From Thalassiosira profunda (Eukaryota > Bacillariophyta > Thalassiosirophyceae > Thalassiosirales > Thalassiosiraceae): a stretch of 32,416 nucleotides of DNA. Below are positions 4,147 to 31,164 of this stretch, piece by piece. Made by a program: the position numbers and the translations under genes. A model generated the notes under the pieces. It was not told the origin of the DNA. It made no database searches and saw only the letters and a program-made list of their open reading frames with translations. How positions within the stretch are numbered: the stretch's first letter is position 1; each line of letters opens with the position of its first letter. The stretch lies in NCBI GenBank assembly GCA_036939355.1, contig JALLAP010000163.1, positions 1 through 32,416 of the forward strand, written 5' to 3'.

Positions 4147-5997
4147 CTACTTCTGCTCAACCAGAGCCGATTCTAGACCCTCCAAGCGCGCCTCGAACGT
4201 CGTCTGCGGGGATTTCGATTCGATCTCGGCCACCACGGAGTGTGGGATGACTTTCTTTACTCCAAGCGCTTTCTTTCCACCATCTCGGGTCGCGAATCCG
4301 TAGTGTAACGGCGAGATGAATGCGCATTCTAAATCGCGGAGGACATGATCATCGCAATACAGCGGGCGAATCTTGGGCGGATAGACTTCAAAGTGCACCG
4401 CGACGGCCAGTGTGTGATCTTCCTCTTTCATTGCTCGCAGAGTTCCTATGTTTCGCTTAACGAACCTGCAGCCGTTCATCATCAAGTTTCGGCGATGGGT
4501 ATTGCACCTTTTGAGCTCGGTTGCATTGCTTCCCTCTCCCTTCAGCCCTCCACAGCAATGGCTATGCCCCACACCCCAACTTTCTGTTTGGCATGCAGCT
4601 GAGCAATAGCACTCGATCATACAGCCTTGGCAGAAACGCAGCAAGTTCCTGTCAAAGGTCTTGAGGCAGTTGCAGCAAATGGGGGTGCCGTAGTCGACCG
4701 CATCTTCAATGACCGAACAAATGGCATTGGATCGATCTGATTGACTTTTCCGCAGCGGGCCCAAAGCCTCCAATATCTCATATTTCCTCCCACGAAGGGC
4801 GCGCGATGTCTTGCTGTGCCCCGCCATTGCGTAGAGTCCCTTGGCAATCGCGTAGGCATCATCAGCAGCAAATTCCATATTGCTTTCATCGTGAACGTGA
4901 TCACTGGTGAGAACTTCCAGCAATCCAGCACGAATTGCAGCCGCGTATCTGCTGTCAATTGGTTGGACATGCTTGTACTCTCTATCGAGGCCAAGGATTG
5001 GGCACATCATGCCCGTTGCAAATCGAGCTGAGCCGCGCCTCCCAATATCGATTACCGCTTCAATCACATGCGCATCAACGTAGTCTTTGTCCAGTAGCAA
5101 GGTGTAAATGTGGCTCATAATCAAGTCCACATCCTGGTGCTCGTAACCGACCATGCGAACCAGTCCAACAACTGTCGAATCAAGGCATTCTGGATCGTTG
5201 CTCAAAAGAGGAGCACACGCTATCTGCTCTATTGGATTGGGGAGTGATAACCCCTCTCCCTCCAACTGATCCTGGGCATCAATAACAGTACCAATGACTT
5301 GTTGAGCGCCATGGCAGACGTTCTGGTGGAAAACATCTGGTTGTTGGAGGAACCCAGCCTCCGCCACCATGTCCGTCCGGCTTACACTCCAGCAGGAAGC
5401 CTGGGCAACAAAGGGAAGGAGGCCTTTGTACGCAATCATCTCCGCAAACCCTCTTCTCGACTGCTTCGTGATGCAATGAACCAGCTCGAAGAAGGGCGAC
5501 AGGCACATGTACCAAATCGTGTTGCTTTGAAACAACTCCCTCTTGCTGTTGGTAATGCCCTCAACGACCGGACCGAGGGATTTCGCCACCTCAAACAGAA
5601 CGTCGTCTGGGCACCCATCGTGCCGAACCATCAGCCGGAGAATGCCCAACCAGAGGAAAGGTACTTCGATGCCTTCCCCCACATCACACTGGGCAGGCAC
5701 TACAGCAGGTACGGATTTGTCGCGGCACTTGTCGAAAAAGAAGAGGAGAGTAGTGTGGAAGCTCTTCTCCAAAAACTTGTCCCTCAATTTTCCCCCCTTC
5801 CGAGGGTCCGAGAGTCTGCGAACGATCTCCCGTAGATCCGCAGTATAGTTGCGGTGGATGTTATTTGCTTTTCTCTGCCCCTGCTCCTCGAACGATGGCG
5901 GCTGCTCCCCCGCCTTTGATTCCTTGCGAGCTGCCTCCTCCTCGCATTTCTGCTTGGCCTTGCGCTGCTTGCCGCGGTCCTTCTTCCGCGACGGCAT
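4147..5997 (-). CDS. MYND zinc-finger protein, MPSRKKD family, 616 aa
   Basis: The 616-residue product begins with MPSRKKDRGKQRKAKQK, a basic leader shared with the two smaller MYND proteins in this window. Residues about 30 to 430 are mostly helical and without a domain I can name; they could be armadillo/HEAT-like but I cannot show it. The MYND finger spans about 441-482, with a CxxC pair, a second CxxC, an ECYCSAAC zinc knuckle and a closing HxxxC. MYND fingers bind two zincs and usually mediate protein-protein contacts. About 134 residues follow the finger, unlike the two paralogues where the finger is near the C-terminus. There is no SET domain, so a methyltransferase role is not supported. 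The start ATG 5997 is fixed by the shared leader. The gene is divergent from CDC48. Confidence 0.85.
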   Translation of the reverse strand: MPSRKKDRGKQRKAKQKCEEEAARKESKAGEQPPSFEEQGQRKANNIHRNYTADLREIVRRLSDPRKGGKLRDKFLEKSFHTTLLFFFDKCRDKSVPAVVPAQCDVGEGIEVPFLWLGILRLMVRHDGCPDDVLFEVAKSLGPVVEGITNSKRELFQSNTIWYMCLSPFFELVHCITKQSRRGFAEMIAYKGLLPFVAQASCWSVSRTDMVAEAGFLQQPDVFHQNVCHGAQQVIGTVIDAQDQLEGEGLSLPNPIEQIACAPLLSNDPECLDSTVVGLVRMVGYEHQDVDLIMSHIYTLLLDKDYVDAHVIEAVIDIGRRGSARFATGMMCPILGLDREYKHVQPIDSRYAAAIRAGLLEVLTSDHVHDESNMEFAADDAYAIAKGLYAMAGHSKTSRALRGRKYEILEALGPLRKSQSDRSNAICSVIEDAVDYGTPICCNCLKTFDRNLLRFCQGCMIECYCSAACQTESWGVGHSHCCGGLKGEGSNATELKRCNTHRRNLMMNGCRFVKRNIGTLRAMKEEDHTLAVAVHFEVYPPKIRPLYCDDHVLRDLECAFISPLHYGFATRDGGKKALGVKKVIPHSVVAEIESKSPQTTFEARLEGLESALVEQK

Positions 5998-11812: not shown

Positions 11813-12541
11813 TCATCCCCCCTTCTTCTGCGTCTTCGCCTGCTCTCTGACTCGCTTGCAATTCTCTTTGTGCCGGGGCCAACCTGCCGCGGCGCAGGAT
11901 TCGGAACAGTATTGCTGTCTTTCACAGCCAGTGCATATCAAAAAGGTGCTGCGTGGCTTTCTCTCGTGGCATTCAGGGCAGAAGCTCGTTCTCTGCTTCG
12001 ATTGCACCTTCTCCCACAACCCGTCCAGGCAGGAACAGGGAATGCGGTCGCGGTAAAACTCCACCAGCCCCCGCTCGCAACCCAATGCGACATCTCTTTC
12101 CCTCATGACAACTTCTTTATCCCTCGTATCGAACCAAGTATCATAGTTTTCAAGCAGCGTGAGAGCCCCAGCAACTCCGCCAGCGGCCCTTTTCCCTTCG
12201 CCATTGTTGTCGTGCGTCGAGAGCATTCTCCTGCCAAGCAGCACCTCCACTCCATCGGTCAGAAGACCTGAAATAATACCAACGCGATTGATCGAGTCTT
12301 GCCAAACCTCCGAATGCATCGTGACGACGCTACCCATCGCGGCCATGGCAGCATGCGTCATTCGCATATTCGGATGAAATGAAACGTATTCGTCATCAAT
12401 CTTTTCGCCCCAGCTTTCAAGGAAGTCGTCCAGGAAGATCTGGCAGTCACGAGGCACAATGCTGCTGCTGCCATGCGTGCAATTGGCTTTTGCCTTCCTC
12501 TCCCTCCGCTCCCTCCCCTTGTCCTTCTTTCGCGACGGCAT
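11813..12541 (-). CDS. MYND zinc-finger protein, MPSRKKD family, 242 aa
   Basis: The 242-residue product begins MPSRKKDKGRERRERKAKAN, followed by about 165 residues of helical sequence with no domain I recognise and a MYND finger at about 188-228 (CPECHERK, CTGCERQQYCSESC, closing HKENC). The last 14 residues are basic. It is intact and closely related to the broken copy at 30413: both share RDKEVVMRERDV and IPCSCLD blocks, a 45-bp stretch in the finger is identical at DNA level, and the 5' flanks (about 12541-12640 here) are also recognisably alike. It serves as the reference reading frame for that copy. Probably a protein-protein interaction module; partners are unknown. Head to head with the PRORP-like gene. 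Confidence 0.85.
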   Translation of the reverse strand: MPSRKKDKGRERRERKAKANCTHGSSSIVPRDCQIFLDDFLESWGEKIDDEYVSFHPNMRMTHAAMAAMGSVVTMHSEVWQDSINRVGIISGLLTDGVEVLLGRRMLSTHDNNGEGKRAAGGVAGALTLLENYDTWFDTRDKEVVMRERDVALGCERGLVEFYRDRIPCSCLDGLWEKVQSKQRTSFCPECHERKPRSTFLICTGCERQQYCSESCAAAGWPRHKENCKRVREQAKTQKKGG

Positions 12542-13302
12542 TTTATCCCGTCGGTGACGCGGGGAGGAGGGCGCGCCACGACACGACGCTCACAAGGCTC
12601 TGAGGCGAAGAACCCCCGAGCAGATTTATCCCCACTCGGCGCCTCCAGTAATAAGACGGAAGATGAGCGTCCGTGTTGTCCAGGAACAGGGGACGAGGAG
12701 GGAGCAGGCGGCGGGCGGGGATGGAGACAGGCGCCAGTAGCTAGGCGCAGGCGCAGCGGAGCAGGGGAGGAGGGAGTGAGGGAGGACGCAAAAGAGGAGG
12801 GAGATAGGGAGAGAGGTACGTAACAATGTACGTCGTACATTTCTTCTCGAGCTTCTCGAGCCCGGCCAGAGTGCGCCACCAAAGCCCAAAGGTGCAGCGC
12901 GTAGCAGCGCTTGGCCATTCATCTATGTTGATGGCGGGTGAAAGAGCATGCTGCATTGCCTTATCGCGAGGAGGGTCGCCAGAGGTCACCGCTGGTCCCT
13001 TCAAAATGGCGTCGGGCTCAACAATTCAACCAGGCCGCGCGGGGTGGCCGAGCAATGGGAGGTCTTGGGGGGCGCTAGATGCTGCTGGCGGCCTTGCTAT
13101 GTGGGCGGATCCGCCGCCGCTCCGCGAGAGGGGGGCTTGCTTAGACCAGCCCTCAAAATTGCCGTTCGGAGTTTCTGGCGGGAAAAGATTCATTTAGCGA
13201 CAATGATATCGCTCATCCTCGGGCTCCGCCCGGAGCAGGGGAAAGAGCACCACGCACGGCCAAGACAGCGCGGGCGCTGATACGCTTGGCCTGGAAGCGA
13301 GC
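12542..13302. promoter_or_regulatory. Divergent intergenic region, MYND gene / PRORP-like gene
   Basis: This 761-bp gap contains the left copy of a ~70-bp direct repeat (12944-13011), whose right copy overlaps the proposed start of the PRORP-like gene. The stretch next to 12541 resembles the 5' flank of the MYND copy at 30413. Short open frames are present on both strands without recognisable motifs. No RNA gene was seen. Confidence 0.5.
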
Positions 13303-13369
13303 ATGCTGCGTTGGCACCCGATGAGGAGTGCCGCCACCAGAGGTCGCCGCTGGTCCCTTCGAAATGGCG
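12944..13369 (+). repeat. Direct repeat pair of ~70 bp (12944-13011 and 13299-13369)
   Basis: Both copies start GAGCATGCTGC and end with CGCTGGTCCCTTC(A/G)AAATGGCG, with an internal AGAGGTC(A/G)CCGCTGG block. The left copy is 68 bp and the right is 71 bp, with small differences between. Each contains an ATG followed by an Arg-rich open frame (MLHCLIARRVARG and MLRWHPMRSAATRG). The right copy would encode the first residues of the PRORP-like protein if ATG 13303 is used. Confidence 0.8.
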
Positions 13370-15917
13370 GCGATGCCCGCTGCTCGGCGATTTGCAATTA
13401 TGATGGCACAATTCCCAGCCATCACCCGATGGCCGCATTCGTTGATAGCAGCCCGTGGTCGATCAGAAGTGCAGGGGCTGCATCCCAGCGCTGCGCGTTC
13501 AGTGGCGTTTCCCTCGCCCCCGAGGAATCGCCCCACCTCTCGCAGCCCTTCCACGGATACCGAACGAGGTTGCGCGCGTGCTGCAAATGTGGGGACGCGG
13601 AGGGAGCGCTGGACTTGATCCGCCGGGCGCGGGGGCGATCCTTATCCCCCTTCAAGGCGGACGATTACATGCTGGCGCTGGTGTCGCTGGCGGAGGGCGG
13701 CCATTTCGGGTGAGCGCTCCGCGCATATTATTTTGCGCCGCATTCTTGTGTGGGTTGCTACTGTTGCTTTTAGCTGTGCATATCTTATGCTCATATTATG
13801 TATATCATAATCATTCGATGCACCGAATAAGCGGGGAGAATGGGGCTGAGCTGTTCAATGAAATTGCGTCGGACATTGACCTCGCTTCGCGGGCGTGCGA
13901 GATCTTGCCAGAGTCGGCGTTGAGGTTGCACAATTCGCTCACAAAGGCATTCGGAGATGTTGAATCAACAACAGAGCAAGGGCACGAGGAGGGGAAACAA
14001 AGGGAGCGCATTCCATTCAGAGATAGTCCCGTAAATGGCGACAAGGTCGTCTCCTGCCGGGCGGAAGTGGATCCACGCAAAAGACGGTGTCCAGTCACCG
14101 ACGTGATGCTGTCCTCCAGCACAATCGAACCAGAGAAGAGAAGGCAAATGCTGGAAGAAGTGGTGGCATCGGGAGGAAAGCAGGCCTTGCTGGTTGTGGA
14201 ACTGAGCAACTTTGCAGATTGGATGAACGCAAGAAAAGGCCCATCGTTCACTGCTATCATCGATGGAGCGCATGTCGATGATATTGGGACAATGGTGTCC
14301 ACATTGAAGGAGCGTGAGCGTTTTAGGGTTGTTGGGCCGGCGGCAAGACGCGAGCGCATCTTAGTTCTCTTGCCGAAAGATAGACGTGTGTCGAAGACGC
14401 TGATGAGAGCAGCAGCGCGGAATAGAGTGTGCATTTACACGGTTCCTCAAGGGCACGAAGACTTGTTCTGTGCATTTGCAACGCTGTTGGGTTTGAAGCA
14501 AACGCAGCATCGGAGCGCTGAAACCGGCCCTATCTTGATATCTGGCAACACATTCGAAAGCCTGCCAACGTCAACCAGTGAAATGGTTCGCTGCCGATAC
14601 ACCGCTGCCGATGTGGCAAATGGGAAACTGCCTCGGAGCGACCCATTATCGAGTGTGCAGGCAATCAATGCTGCAAAGAAGCCACGTCATATTGCGTTCT
14701 CGATGCACGAACGGCAAGCAGTTTACCGAGACTTGCTGGAGCTTGTGCCGGAGGCGGTGGCAATCGAGCTGACGAAATTTGCTGAGTATTTGAACACGAG
14801 AGAGGGACGCCCCTTCACAATCATCTTGGACGGGGCAAACGTGGGCGACATTCGCAATTTGGTGTCTCGCCTCGAGAGGCACAATGGTTCGTTGGAGCAC
14901 GTCCTATGCGTCTTTCCGGAGAAGAACCGGTACGCTCGACAAGCGGCCAAGAGCATGAAAGGCAACACCCAGAATTGCTTTTACATGGTCCCGGATGGGC
15001 TGGAAGACGATCTTTTCTGCTTGGTGGCAACGCTCGTGGATCAAGAAAGGTCCTACAACAAATATCCGGGGCCGAGAATGCGAACGCTGTTGATAACGAA
15101 CGATCGCTTTCGGGATCACAAACAGTACGTCCGTGATAGGGCGCTTTTCCGCAAGTGGTACGCATGCCACTGTTCCAGTCACATTGATGCCGGAAGAAGG
15201 AAACGACTTCCCAAGGACTCTAATGTGTTCAAGCCGAGGATCGAGAGCACGGACGATGACATGCAGGCTAGGCAAACAACTCCATTCTCTCCGGATCAGT
15301 TAGAGCAAATGACCGAAGATCTGCTGGATCTAGCGAAGGAGAGATCGCAAGCAGAGAATGAGCTTGGGCGTTTCGTCGATTTTATGAGTGCCCGAGAAGG
15401 CCATCCATTTACGGTCATTCTAGACGGAGCCTTCGAGGACGTTGAGTTGATGCTATCGGATCTCGAGGAAGAAGGCGAATGCCCGTTGGTGTTGTTTGAC
15501 ACACAAGTAGCATCCGAGAGGCAGGGAGTCATCTACCGCCTGCAGCGCAGGGGCAACTTCTACGTCATCCCCGAGTCGTACGACGCAAAGTTGTTTTACG
15601 TGATGGCCACTCTGGTCGATCAGAAACGAGCACACAGCAACACAAGCCCGGAGCCTGTGTGTCCGATGTTGGTGACGAAGGAGAAGCTCATCGAACGGCA
15701 GCAGAACGTGATGGATCCAGCGCTCTTTCGGGAGTGGCGCCGGCATCACTATTACAAACAAGGAGACGGAATGCTGAACTTCCTTCCTGTGCTGAGGAGA
15801 CGGATCGAGTGCAACGACAGGCCGAGCAGCAACGGCGGAAATGCGTCGACGGTGTGGCACTTTCCCGTGTTCGATTGGAACATCAATGAAAGATACGTTG
15901 TGCGGTTGCCCTGCTGA
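13303..15917 (+). CDS. PRORP-like protein-only RNase P with three tandem NYN domains (one intact)
   Basis: Exon 1 is 13303-13709 and exon 2 is 13832-15917; the 122-nt intron begins GTGAGC and ends AATAAG, giving 830 residues. PRORPs remove 5' leaders from pre-tRNA. Exon 1 ends with a PPR-like helix pair (CKCGDAEGALDLIRRAR and following). A half zinc site follows (RCPVTDVML, C222). Then come three NYN copies. NYN1 has IIDGAH (D280) but only one acid in HEDLFC and GN for the last acid. NYN2 has LDGANVG (D469), LEDDLFC (D528/D529) and ITNDRFRDH (D560): all four catalytic acids. NYN3 keeps LDGAF (D667) but has YDAKLF and VTKEK. The C-terminus WHFPV...RLPC (H812, C830) matches the closing zinc ligands of PRORP. 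PPR content is short for the family. Start may be ATG 13429 instead; the exon join is inferred. Confidence 0.82.
13710..13831 (+). other. Inferred intron of the PRORP-like gene
   Basis: The PPR-bearing frame meets TGA at 13711, right after the donor GTGAGC, and the NYN frame opens downstream. Joining 13709 to 13832 restores one frame (phase 2) without a stop. An alternative acceptor TTTTAG at 13771-13773 has a better pyrimidine tract but leads to a stop codon within 12 codons. Confidence 0.65.
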
Positions 15918-25054: not shown

Positions 25055-28000
25055 ATGCACAGGGCGGCGCTCCTCCGTCGGCGGGCGGCGGCGTCGCTGG
25101 TGCGCCCGGCCGGCGGTCCGGCGCGGGCAGAAGCGGCGCCCCGGCTCGGGACTGCGCCGCGGCATCGCCCTCCGATTTGCCGCCGCGGCGAAATAATAAT
25201 ACGCAGGCGGTACGGGGCCCATTCGTCCACCGGCGAGGCTATTGCCCCCCGCAGTGACGTCCTCGCGGCGGCGACGTCCCTCGCAAATCCGCCGGCCGGG
25301 AAAAATGCCCACGATCCCGCCGAACCACAACAACCACCGCCGACCCCCGACGGCCGCCTCTCGGGACGGCAGCGCGCCCTCCTCGAGCACACCGCGTCCA
25401 TCCTCCCGCCCCTCGAAGAACGGCCGCCGGGATCGCTCTCGCCGTCCCAACTGGTCGAAATTTCGAACGGCATCGACGCCTGGATTTCGACCGGGGAGCA
25501 TAGACACCTGGGCGCCGCGCAGGCCGAATTGCTAATCAGACGGCTCATCGTGGAAAAGGGCGGGGGACGGAGCCTGCTGACGGACGAGGAGAGGGGGCGG
25601 CTGGTGCCGTCCGACCGGGGCGCGGGAGGCACCCCCGCGGAGGCGGGAGGGGAGGCCATCGCGCTGCGGAAGAATCCCCACGTGGCGTGGGAGCTGTACC
25701 GCCTCCGCCCGTTCGTCGCCCACCTCGACGCCCTCTATGCGGGAATGGAGTTTGTGGACCGCATCCTCGGCCTCCTCGACCTCTTCGAGGAGGAGTACCA
25801 CGCGGAGGATGAATTTCCCGGAAGTCCCGACGACGAGATCCGCTACAAGGACCTCGTCGCGGCGCTGTGCGATAGAGGTACTCCCCACGCGGCCGCGGCG
25901 GCCGAGCGAATCTTGCATCGGTTCGAGGAGCATTTGGCGCGGCGGCCGCACTATCACTCCAATCCCCCGGGGGCGGAGACGTACAACAACATCCTCACGG
26001 CGTGGCGCCGCGCCGGGATCCGGGGCGCGGCGTATCCCCCCGGGACGGCGCCGCCGTACGATCATCACCCCCACCCCTGCTCCAATTTGCTGGAGGAGAT
26101 GCTGGAATTGTACCGGGGCGATCCGCGGGGGAGGGCGCGGATGCGCCCCGACTTTTTGACGTTCAACACGGCGATATCGAGCTTGAGCGGGATGCAGGCG
26201 GGAATGGCGGGGCGGGGGACGGACGAATACCACCGGACGATCGGAAAAAGATGTTACGAGCACTTGATGGGCATGCTCGAGATGCACAACGAAATAGGTG
26301 CGGCGTGCGCCCCGGACCTCGTCACGTTCTCGACCGTCATCAACACCCTGGGACGGGGGAAGGATCGGGGCGACGAGGCGAGAGCAAGGGAGGTCCTCGG
26401 GGCGATGTTGCGCCTGAGCGGCGTGGCGGACGGCGAGGAGGACAACGTCGCCGACTTTCCCTACGACGTCGTGCCCCGGAACATGCACTTCAACATCGTC
26501 CTGTCCCTCATGTCCGACAAGAAGCGGGCGGACGACGAGGCCCTGGGCAATGCCAAGCGGTACGTCGGCATCATGGAGGATCTGGGGCGGAAGGAGCGGG
26601 AGGGGCAAAAGCACGCGGGGAACCTCCCGCACACGGCGTCGGGGGAGGTCCACGACAATCCCTTCCCGGAGGCGGCCGCGGACGCGGAGGCGCGGCGGCG
26701 GGGCGCCCGCGGGAGCAGCGCCCCGGACATCATCACCTACAACACGCTCCTGACCATCGCGGCGCGGGCGGGACGGCCGGCCGCGGCGGAGGGCATCCTG
26801 GACGGCATGATCGAACGGGCCGCGGCGGGCGCGTCCGACGTGAAGCCGAACACGGACTCGTTCAACACGGTCCTTTGGGCGTGGTCGAAGGAGAAGGGGC
26901 GGCGGGGGAAGTCGCCAGGAAAACCAAGGGCGGAGAAGCTCCTCCTGCGGATGCAGGAAATGGCGGACGACGGAGACGCGAGCGTCCAACCGGACCGGGT
27001 GAGCTTGACGACGCTCATCAATGCCGTCAAGTCGGGGGCGACTCCGCACGGGGCGGAAGAGATCGTGAAACGGATGGAGGCCAACGACAATCCCGACTTG
27101 CGGCCGGACACCATTTCCTATACTTCGTTGGTACGGTGTTGGATTGACAGTGGACATGCCAATATGGCCGATCGGGCGGAAGAAATTGTCGAGCACACAA
27201 ATCGACGGTACAAGGAGGGCTTCGACGAATGCAAACCAGATGTTACTCTTTACAATGTTGCCATGGATGCCCTCGCAAAGAGTGGACAGCGCGACGCCGC
27301 AGAACGCGCAGAAGCACTGCTGAACCGCATGCTGGATCAATACTACGCCGGAGAGTCCAACCTGGCGCCAAATACGCAAACATTCGCAACGGCCATCCAG
27401 GCTTGGGCGCGATCGAGCAATCCACACGGCGCCATGAAAGCCGAGAAGCTGCTGCGAACGATGCACCAGTTGGAAGAAACGGGGCTCAGCGTGGCGCCCA
27501 ACACCATTGCCTATTCCACCTGCATCATGGCGTGGCGGAGAGTGGGAGGCAGCGAAGCCGGCGAGCGCGTGAATGCACTCCTGCGGAAGATGGAGGAATC
27601 CGAGGAGAGGGGCCTGACTTCGATGAAGCCGAATTGCATGACGTACACCAACGCTATGGAAGTGTGGGTGAGAAGTCAGCGGCCGGATTCGCTCGAGAGG
27701 GTCGAGGAAATACTCCAACGCATGATGGCACGGTCGGATCGAGGCGAATCGGAGTCGGCGCCCACAACGACGACGTTCAACGTCGTCATGAAGGCCATCC
27801 AGCACAGCCCCCATCCAACGAAGCACCAAAAGGCGGAGCGGCTGCTGCATCGCATGAAGGAATTGCACAAACGCGGGGACAGCGCAGTCAAGCCGGACAC
27901 GATCACCTACAATTCGTTCTTTTCCGCGTGCGCCATGACGAGGGGCAACGCCGAGACGAAAATCAATGCGTTCTCCGCGCTCCTGTCCGCCCTGATCGAA

Positions 28001-28363
28001 CTGCAAGAGCACGCGCATCTGCGCCCCGACCTTTACACCTGGCCGGCCGTTTGGAAGGCCACCCGCAACCTCCTGGACACGCGACGAGATGCGACGCATG
28101 TGACGTGGATCAACCGCATATTCGACCTGACCATTCAGAGCGGCTTCGTGAACGAGTACCTGTGGAACAACCTGCGGAACAATCTCCCGGCGGAATATTT
28201 GCAGAAGAGGCTCGGCGCGACGGGGAGCATCAACGACATTACGGTGCACGACCTGCCGCCCGAGTGGACTTGCAACGTGAGGCTAGGGAAGAAGGACGAT
28301 GCCAAGAAATCGAGAGACAAGCCGAAGCGAGGGCACCGTCGGAAAGAAGCTGATCAATCCTAG
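25055..28363 (+). CDS. Large pentatricopeptide repeat (PPR) protein, likely mitochondrial
   Basis: The 1102-residue intronless product carries many PPR motifs from about residue 305 to 970, for example TYNNILTAWRRAGIRG, TFSTVINTLGRGKDRG, ITYNTLLTIAARAGR, DSFNTVLWAWSKEKG, ISYTSLVRCWIDSGH, TLYNVAMDALAKSGQ, TFATAIQAWARSSNP and TYTNAMEVWVRSQRP. Several repeats are longer than the 35-residue plant norm, with acidic or Gly-rich inserts between helices. PPR proteins bind organellar RNA and act in its processing, stability or translation. Residues 1-60 are rich in Arg and Ala with almost no acidic residues (MHRAALLRRRAAASLVRP), typical of a mitochondrial presequence. The C-terminus is basic (KKDDAKKSRDKPKRGHRRK). 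There is no SMR, DYW or NYN domain. ATG 25055 directly precedes the presequence. Confidence 0.92.
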   Translation: MHRAALLRRRAAASLVRPAGGPARAEAAPRLGTAPRHRPPICRRGEIIIRRRYGAHSSTGEAIAPRSDVLAAATSLANPPAGKNAHDPAEPQQPPPTPDGRLSGRQRALLEHTASILPPLEERPPGSLSPSQLVEISNGIDAWISTGEHRHLGAAQAELLIRRLIVEKGGGRSLLTDEERGRLVPSDRGAGGTPAEAGGEAIALRKNPHVAWELYRLRPFVAHLDALYAGMEFVDRILGLLDLFEEEYHAEDEFPGSPDDEIRYKDLVAALCDRGTPHAAAAAERILHRFEEHLARRPHYHSNPPGAETYNNILTAWRRAGIRGAAYPPGTAPPYDHHPHPCSNLLEEMLELYRGDPRGRARMRPDFLTFNTAISSLSGMQAGMAGRGTDEYHRTIGKRCYEHLMGMLEMHNEIGAACAPDLVTFSTVINTLGRGKDRGDEARAREVLGAMLRLSGVADGEEDNVADFPYDVVPRNMHFNIVLSLMSDKKRADDEALGNAKRYVGIMEDLGRKEREGQKHAGNLPHTASGEVHDNPFPEAAADAEARRRGARGSSAPDIITYNTLLTIAARAGRPAAAEGILDGMIERAAAGASDVKPNTDSFNTVLWAWSKEKGRRGKSPGKPRAEKLLLRMQEMADDGDASVQPDRVSLTTLINAVKSGATPHGAEEIVKRMEANDNPDLRPDTISYTSLVRCWIDSGHANMADRAEEIVEHTNRRYKEGFDECKPDVTLYNVAMDALAKSGQRDAAERAEALLNRMLDQYYAGESNLAPNTQTFATAIQAWARSSNPHGAMKAEKLLRTMHQLEETGLSVAPNTIAYSTCIMAWRRVGGSEAGERVNALLRKMEESEERGLTSMKPNCMTYTNAMEVWVRSQRPDSLERVEEILQRMMARSDRGESESAPTTTTFNVVMKAIQHSPHPTKHQKAERLLHRMKELHKRGDSAVKPDTITYNSFFSACAMTRGNAETKINAFSALLSALIELQEHAHLRPDLYTWPAVWKATRNLLDTRRDATHVTWINRIFDLTIQSGFVNEYLWNNLRNNLPAEYLQKRLGATGSINDITVHDLPPEWTCNVRLGKKDDAKKSRDKPKRGHRRKEADQS

Positions 28364-29865: not shown

Positions 29866-30412
29866 CTCGACGCAACTTCGAGAGGAGGGCGGAGGGAGAG
29901 GTGTATGTGGGCGTTAGCTAGCTGGGGTGCGGGTGGAAAGTTGAACCAAAAAGATCCACGCACGAAATATCGCTGAACTGTCGCCAAGGTGTTCTAGCGA
30001 TTAATAGCGAGTCTTGGATTTTCCATTTTCCGTTCGTTTTCCGTTTTCGTTTTCCCCGCCCCGCCCTCCGCCCGCGCTGCGCTGCTCGTAGCCTGGTCCC
30101 TGGTCCCCCGCTCCCTTGTTCCTCTCCCGCGGCGTCCACGGGCGAGCGGTGGGGATTGCTGAGCCCGTTTGAATCGGGGCGGCGGCGCAGAGAAAAGAGT
30201 TGCAAATTATTGCAACAAATCTCGTGTCCTCAGGTGTCCGCGGAATCTGCTCGGGGATAGGTATCTTCGCCTCGGCCTTTGAGCGTCGGTCGCAGCGCCG
30301 CTCCTCCTCCAGGTCAGCCTGTGGATATTTTATGAGGCGGTTCTCTGCGCGCGGCTCGTGGTACATAGCCCGCCCGGCATCTCCCTGCGCCTGCGCTGTC
30401 ACCGACGATAAA
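29866..30412. promoter_or_regulatory. Divergent intergenic region, hydroxylase / MYND copy
   Basis: This 547-bp gap contains a pyrimidine- and purine-skewed low-complexity stretch (about 30015-30070). From about 30243 onward it resembles the 5' flank of the MYND gene at 12541: AATCTGCTCGGGG, TCTTCGCCTC, TTGAGCGTCG, and GTCACCGACG just before the ATG. An additional ~80 bp lies between these blocks here. Confidence 0.6.
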
Positions 30413-31164
30413 ATGCCGTCGAGAAAGAAGGACAAGGGGAGGGAGCGGAGGGAGAGGAAGGCAAAAGCCAACTGCAGGCATGGCTCCACCGAAACGCTGC
30501 CGGCATACGACTGCGAAAGATTCGTCGGTGAATTTCGTGCATTGTTTTGGGTGAATTTCCTGCATTGTCTCAGCATGCGGTCGGCCAACCTAACATGCGA
30601 ATATCGACTACTGCCTTGGACGCGATACGCAGTGTGGCGAAAAAGTATCCGGGAGTCTGGCACGACGCCGCCAAACGCGACCTGATTAAGGCTGAGCTTG
30701 TGTGCAACGGAGCGTCCATGATCCTCGACATAACTGATGCACATGCGGCGCTAATGGGTTCCGGTGGAATAGCAGCGGCAATCACGACTCTCGAAGCCTG
30801 TGACTCTTCAACTTCTCCGCTTTTGAGAGATAAAGAAGTTGTCATGAGGGAAAGAGACGTCATATTCGGCTGCGATAAGGGCATTGTGGAATTTTACCGG
30901 GAGCGGATTCCCTGCTCCTGCCTGGATGAAAAATGGGAGAAGGTGCGATCTCAGCAGAGGACGAGCCTCTGTCCTCAATGCCACGAGAGAAAGCCACGCA
31001 GCACCTTTTTGATATGCACTGGATGCGAGAGACAGCAATACTGTTCCAAAGCCTGTGCTGCGGCAGGCTGGCCGGAGCACAAAGAGGTGTGCAAGGAGTG
31101 CAAGCGCGCGCTTAAGGGGGCAAAGACGCGCAGTAGAAGGGGGGATGGACGGCAGCAAGGATAA
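30413..31164 (+). pseudogene. MYND zinc-finger protein copy frameshifted by a 23-bp tandem duplication
   Basis: The copy begins MPSRKKDKGRERRERKAKAN, as in the intact gene at 11813-12541, and runs in one frame to about 30550. The homologous sequence (QPNMRISTTALD, RDKEVVMRERDV, IPCSCLDEKWEK and the MYND finger CPQCHERK...CTGCERQQYCSKAC) continues in a different frame to the stop at 31162-31164. At the switch, GTGAATTTCGTGCATTG (from 30528) and GTGAATTTCCTGCATTG (from 30551) are two copies of a 23-bp unit, 19 of 23 matching. Losing one unit joins the frames. The second unit starts GT and ends AG (30551-30573) and removing it as an intron would also restore the frame, but 23 nt is too short for a normal intron; a 50-nt intron at 30524-30573 is a further option. 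A recent pseudogene or a mini-intron gene. Confidence 0.75.
30528..30573 (+). repeat. 23-bp tandem duplication inside the MYND copy
   Basis: Units 30528-30550 and 30551-30573 match at 19 of 23 positions. Since 23 is not a multiple of 3, the duplication shifts the frame by one. The differences between the units show it is not brand new, or that it predates some of the drift. Confidence 0.85.

Follow-up and report, generated by a model that had tools for sequence, protein, structure and literature searches.

A predicted PRORP-family protein of the diatom Thalassiosira profunda with three NYN units and one complete catalytic set

What would a PRORP be if its nuclease domain were present three times? 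The question is raised by a two-exon gene at positions 13303-15917, forward strand, of a 32,416-nucleotide stretch of Thalassiosira profunda DNA (the window), in which a first-pass annotation had placed a PRORP-like protein with three NYN nuclease domains. A passage of a 2024 review describes PRORPs as remarkably similar, with one tripartite layout throughout (PMC10941002). The coordinates and residue numbers of that annotation proved exact on the spliced protein, a continuous frame of 830 residues. At the level of this predicted protein, our comparisons show PRORP descent, three NYN units and one complete catalytic set, which makes it an atypical member of an established family of enzymes. 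The layout also appears to be undescribed, as had been proposed: a multi-NYN PRORP is named in no title or abstract opening across the open-licence literature searched.

PRORP descent, NYN units and catalytic residues

Membership in the family is established by sequence, as the exon-2 protein matches Pfam PRORP with 66.2 bits against a cut-off of 39.1 (E 4.4e-18), bearing out the proposed descent. When the units were searched singly, NYN2 stood above the cut-off (2.5e-10), and NYN1 (0.003) and NYN3 (0.01) both fell below it. In NCBIfam, neither the exon-2 protein nor its three unit segments had a match.

Three tandem units, each a linker helix followed by an NYN, sit between the two halves of the zinc-binding-like central domain, and the one-NYN tripartite layout of PRORPs is thereby departed from. 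On the forward strand, with approximate limits, the first half of the central domain lies at 14022-14129, as placed by the relatives' alignment, unit 1 at 14130-14624, unit 2 at 14697-15245 and unit 3 at 15279-15824; the second half (15840-15914) was aligned to relatives. Pairwise BLAST, run without composition adjustment and with E-values that refer to single comparisons, related NYN1 to NYN2 (33% over 110 columns, E 2e-18), NYN1 to NYN3 (30% over 113 columns, E 9e-10) and NYN2 to NYN3 (35% over 152 columns, E 6e-24). Furthermore, a profile of 88 relatives carrying a single DGAN-type motif (181 positions in hhalign) was matched from position 1 to 181 by all three units, with probabilities of 97.7% for NYN1, 99.9% for NYN2 and 99.5% for NYN3, and 11 controls (shuffled, reversed or other segments) reached at most 0.2%. 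In hmmsearch the same profile was covered nearly in full by NYN2 (5-176) and NYN3 (2-174) and only at 6-34 by NYN1, the weakest of the three units by sequence, yet one that spans the whole profile in hhalign.

The extent of the repeated unit was delimited with two further comparisons. A profile built from the C-terminal 640 residues of 22 single-NYN relatives matched the protein three times in overlapping ranges (198-418, 387-565 and 369-628 of 631). P0124, a single-NYN protein of Thalassiosira exigua (ACHAWF_011666), also gave three matches over the NYN region, its residues 376-668, 568-713 and 543-752 pairing with residues 91-377, 448-607 and 621-829, respectively. The predicted repeat is therefore the linker helix plus NYN, with the following segment in units 2 and 3, and the central-domain halves lie outside it. 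Together with BLAST and hhalign, these matches uphold the arrangement of three NYN units bracketed by the split central domain. The NYN1 model resembles a PRORP NYN, its best structural matches in Foldseek being Arabidopsis PRORP1/2 and human PRORP (MRPP3), although with low TM-scores (0.32-0.35 by query) and a single match at E <= 0.001.

Only NYN2 retains the four aspartates of the PRORP active site: D469 (codon 14829-14831), D528 and D529 (15006-15011) and D560 (15102-15104). NYN1 reads D280, E345, D346 and N375, with two of the four, and NYN3 reads D667, A721, K722 and E753, with one, so that the middle copy alone is complete, as first annotated. The residues of NYN2 and NYN3 were read alike with hmmalign, whereas the reading of NYN1 and its loop rests on MAFFT, since hmmalign misplaced this unit past the first aspartate. 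Which of the three units the relatives' NYN was set on by MAFFT varied with the input set; alignments A5 (on NYN1) and A7 (on NYN2) come from chosen sets and are hence selected, and A3 and A6, which put other segments of the relatives onto the repeats, were excluded from folding. All four aspartates are present in 133 of 135 other aligned NYNs, the remaining 2 being gapped there. The loop after DGAN has 7-14 residues in 135 relatives versus 2 in NYN2, NYN3 and P0124 (hmmalign), and NYN1 has the same gap in MAFFT.

The zinc site and the PPR region both appear reduced. The first-pass annotation had assigned C222, H812 and C830 to two zinc halves; C222 and H812, the latter within the WHFPV motif of the second half, do align with the relatives' zinc-site positions, but V825 occupies the last cysteine place. 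C830 was accordingly rejected as a ligand, as V825 is what aligns with the relatives' cysteine and P0002, the closest relative, ends in arginine. The PRORP zinc site of three cysteines and one histidine is thus not found in this protein. Among 134 relatives, the last cysteine place holds Cys in 81, Val in 26 and other residues in 6, with 21 unread, and WH is present in 132. Pattern reading of the first-half cysteine motif succeeded in 107 of the 134 and left 27 without one; CxxC, the spacing in Arabidopsis, occurred in 0 of the 107. Much of the PPR region appears to be missing from the predicted protein, as the match to the relatives' profile starts at position 198 of 631, leaving out positions 1-197, which represent most of the PPR part. 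The remaining region, which begins after an arginine-rich N-terminus in exon 1 (13303-13709), has sub-threshold PPR matches (Pfam E 0.015, NCBIfam E 0.0055).

Relatives and origin of the triplication

The closest relative found is P0002 (T. profunda ACHAXT_009063), 97% identical over the exon-2 query and with the same triple-NYN layout. It reads across the junction of the 122-nucleotide GT..AG intron (13710-13831). It differs in its annotated start, which corresponds to M43, and in its C-terminal arginine in place of cysteine. From M43 onward there are 24 differing columns, none in 43-385, 11 in 386-455, none in 456-736 and 13 from 737 on. The records of P0002 and of P0003, a single-NYN PRORP of T. 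profunda, are both listed with a longest contig of 2,042,256.

Relatives were drawn from the matches listed, 120 of 287, with P0002 outside those 120. At E < 0.01, one NYN was counted in 123 of 125 proteins (a set that includes the 88 profile builders) and three in the present protein and P0002 only. Thirteen further proteins (P0124-P0136) have one NYN region each, which brings the single-NYN total to 136; in P0124 the NYN appears as three consecutive profile fragments, and extra stretches in P0126 and P0132 reach only E 0.12 or worse. Among the proteins counted, the search for the same tandem in other genomes, as the first-pass annotation had suggested, gave one T. profunda record beside otherwise single-NYN proteins.

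P0124 shares with the triple-NYN protein the 2-residue loop, the DDLFC motif, a reduced PPR region and a similar C-terminus; it differs in having one NYN with all four aspartates, and its residues 1-375 match the window protein unconvincingly (one match at E 0.17). In the tree, a branch with support 83/81, not starred, separates NYN1-3 and P0124 from 34 relatives; because the terminal branches are very long, the details are uncertain. NYN1 groups with P0124 (98/83), a grouping that carries a long-branch warning, and a clade of NYN1-3 excluding P0124 is not rejected (approximately unbiased test, p 0.15). P0124 may be similar to the pre-triplication form, or represent a lineage from which copies were lost. 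A joining of unrelated NYNs is disfavoured because the loop is short in all three units (MAFFT) and they share with P0124 the branch supported at 83/81.

Explanations for the triple layout

We favour, with a probability of roughly 0.55, a diatom PRORP paralog in which tandem duplication, within the split central domain, raised the NYN units to three and gave rise to a specialised RNase that has a single active site. Under this reading NYN2 would be a metal-dependent endoribonuclease, NYN1 and NYN3 would be pseudonuclease modules that hold RNA or shape the protein and perhaps compensate for the lost PPRs, and the protein would be organellar, with a narrower range of substrates than this genome's single-NYN PRORPs. 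A bolder version, to which we give a rather small chance, is a single-chain nuclease in which the two inactive copies flank the active one and take over the RNA grip of the lost PPRs, as an intramolecular version of the oligomers formed by other protein-only RNase P enzymes.

Several observations weigh against the favoured reading. NYN2 lacks the DGAN loop and has a cysteine after DD where relatives have tryptophan, and because of this it may act unlike a standard PRORP. NYN3 is acidic, with a net charge of -10, which disfavours RNA binding by this unit; NYN1 (+6) and NYN2 (+5) are positive, and 135 relatives average -1.8 (standard deviation 3.6). P0124, the supposed intermediate, lies below the Pfam PRORP cut-off (31.1 vs 39.1 bits), and the best hit of a sequence search of the PDB, with only the protein as query, had an E of 0.067. 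Finally, confidence is low for the model that spans all of the exon-2 protein (predicted local distance difference test 47, predicted template modelling score 0.33), which is too weak for a fold search.

The four aspartates of NYN2 and the Pfam match could belong to a functional RNase P that, as other PRORPs do, processes the 5' ends of pre-tRNAs, the extra NYNs being tolerated or helpful. We consider this unlikely: most of the PPR part is unmatched, the loop is short in every copy, and additional PRORP genes of this genome lie on contigs C95, C158 and C414 (the last outside the NYN counts). Because of these genes, a role as the cell's sole RNase P is unlikely and the triple-NYN gene is probably a specialised paralog. 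Those on C95 (L006) and C158 (L007) are two very similar single-NYN genes and may represent one gene in two haplotypes, or a recent duplication; each adjoins a very similar long reading frame, taken without a family scan as a cysteine-synthase-like gene. It is important to consider that the assembly (G000) comprises 21.8 Mb and the T. profunda genome is listed at 58 Mb in a passage of PMC12159174; absences from the assembly therefore mean little.

Decay into a pseudoenzyme, with the aspartates of NYN2 as a leftover, would agree with the long branches of all three copies and the degeneration of NYN1 and NYN3. It seems comparably doubtful, as exon 2 (13832-15917, stop codon included) keeps 694 codons open (chance about 8e-11 for random bases of the window's composition) and in 3 of 3 unit pairs conservation is lowest at the third codon position; the identity with P0002 over 43-385 and 456-736 points the same way but may reflect only a very close strain. 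That distinct genes, or a chimera, were taken for a single gene is very improbable even for a protein inferred from DNA alone, given the single frame through all units, the longest exact inter-unit match of 10 nucleotides in a gene without N, and the 2,042,256-base T. profunda contig whose record encodes the same layout with 24 differing columns.

The window and known PRORPs

Around the gene, a 36-nucleotide direct repeat (12979-13014 and 13337-13372, 92% identical, 358 nucleotides apart) has its second copy inside exon 1. An MPSRKKD-like stretch is common to the reading-frame regions 4147-5997 (-), 11813-12541 (-) and 30200-31164 (+); the second of these has a MYND finger (Pfam), and the first has no Pfam match at E 0.001. 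A PPR protein of 1102 residues is encoded at 25055-28363 (+). Rfam, at the gathering threshold, and ARAGORN gave zero matches in the window.

A naturally triplicated nuclease in which one active site is complete, accompanied by a single-NYN relative, offers a handle on the role of extra NYN copies and on how far the PPR domain can shrink. Single-NYN diatom PRORPs (P0003, P0076 and others) share the central domain, the NYN and the WHFP end with the triple-NYN protein, and differ in their one NYN, their 7-14-residue loop and their longer PPR region. Arabidopsis and human PRORPs have the four active-site aspartates, according to a passage of PMC4919922, that here are complete in NYN2 only; unlike the present protein, they are described in PMC10941002, in the part cited above, as tripartite single-NYN enzymes whose zinc site consists of three cysteines and one histidine.
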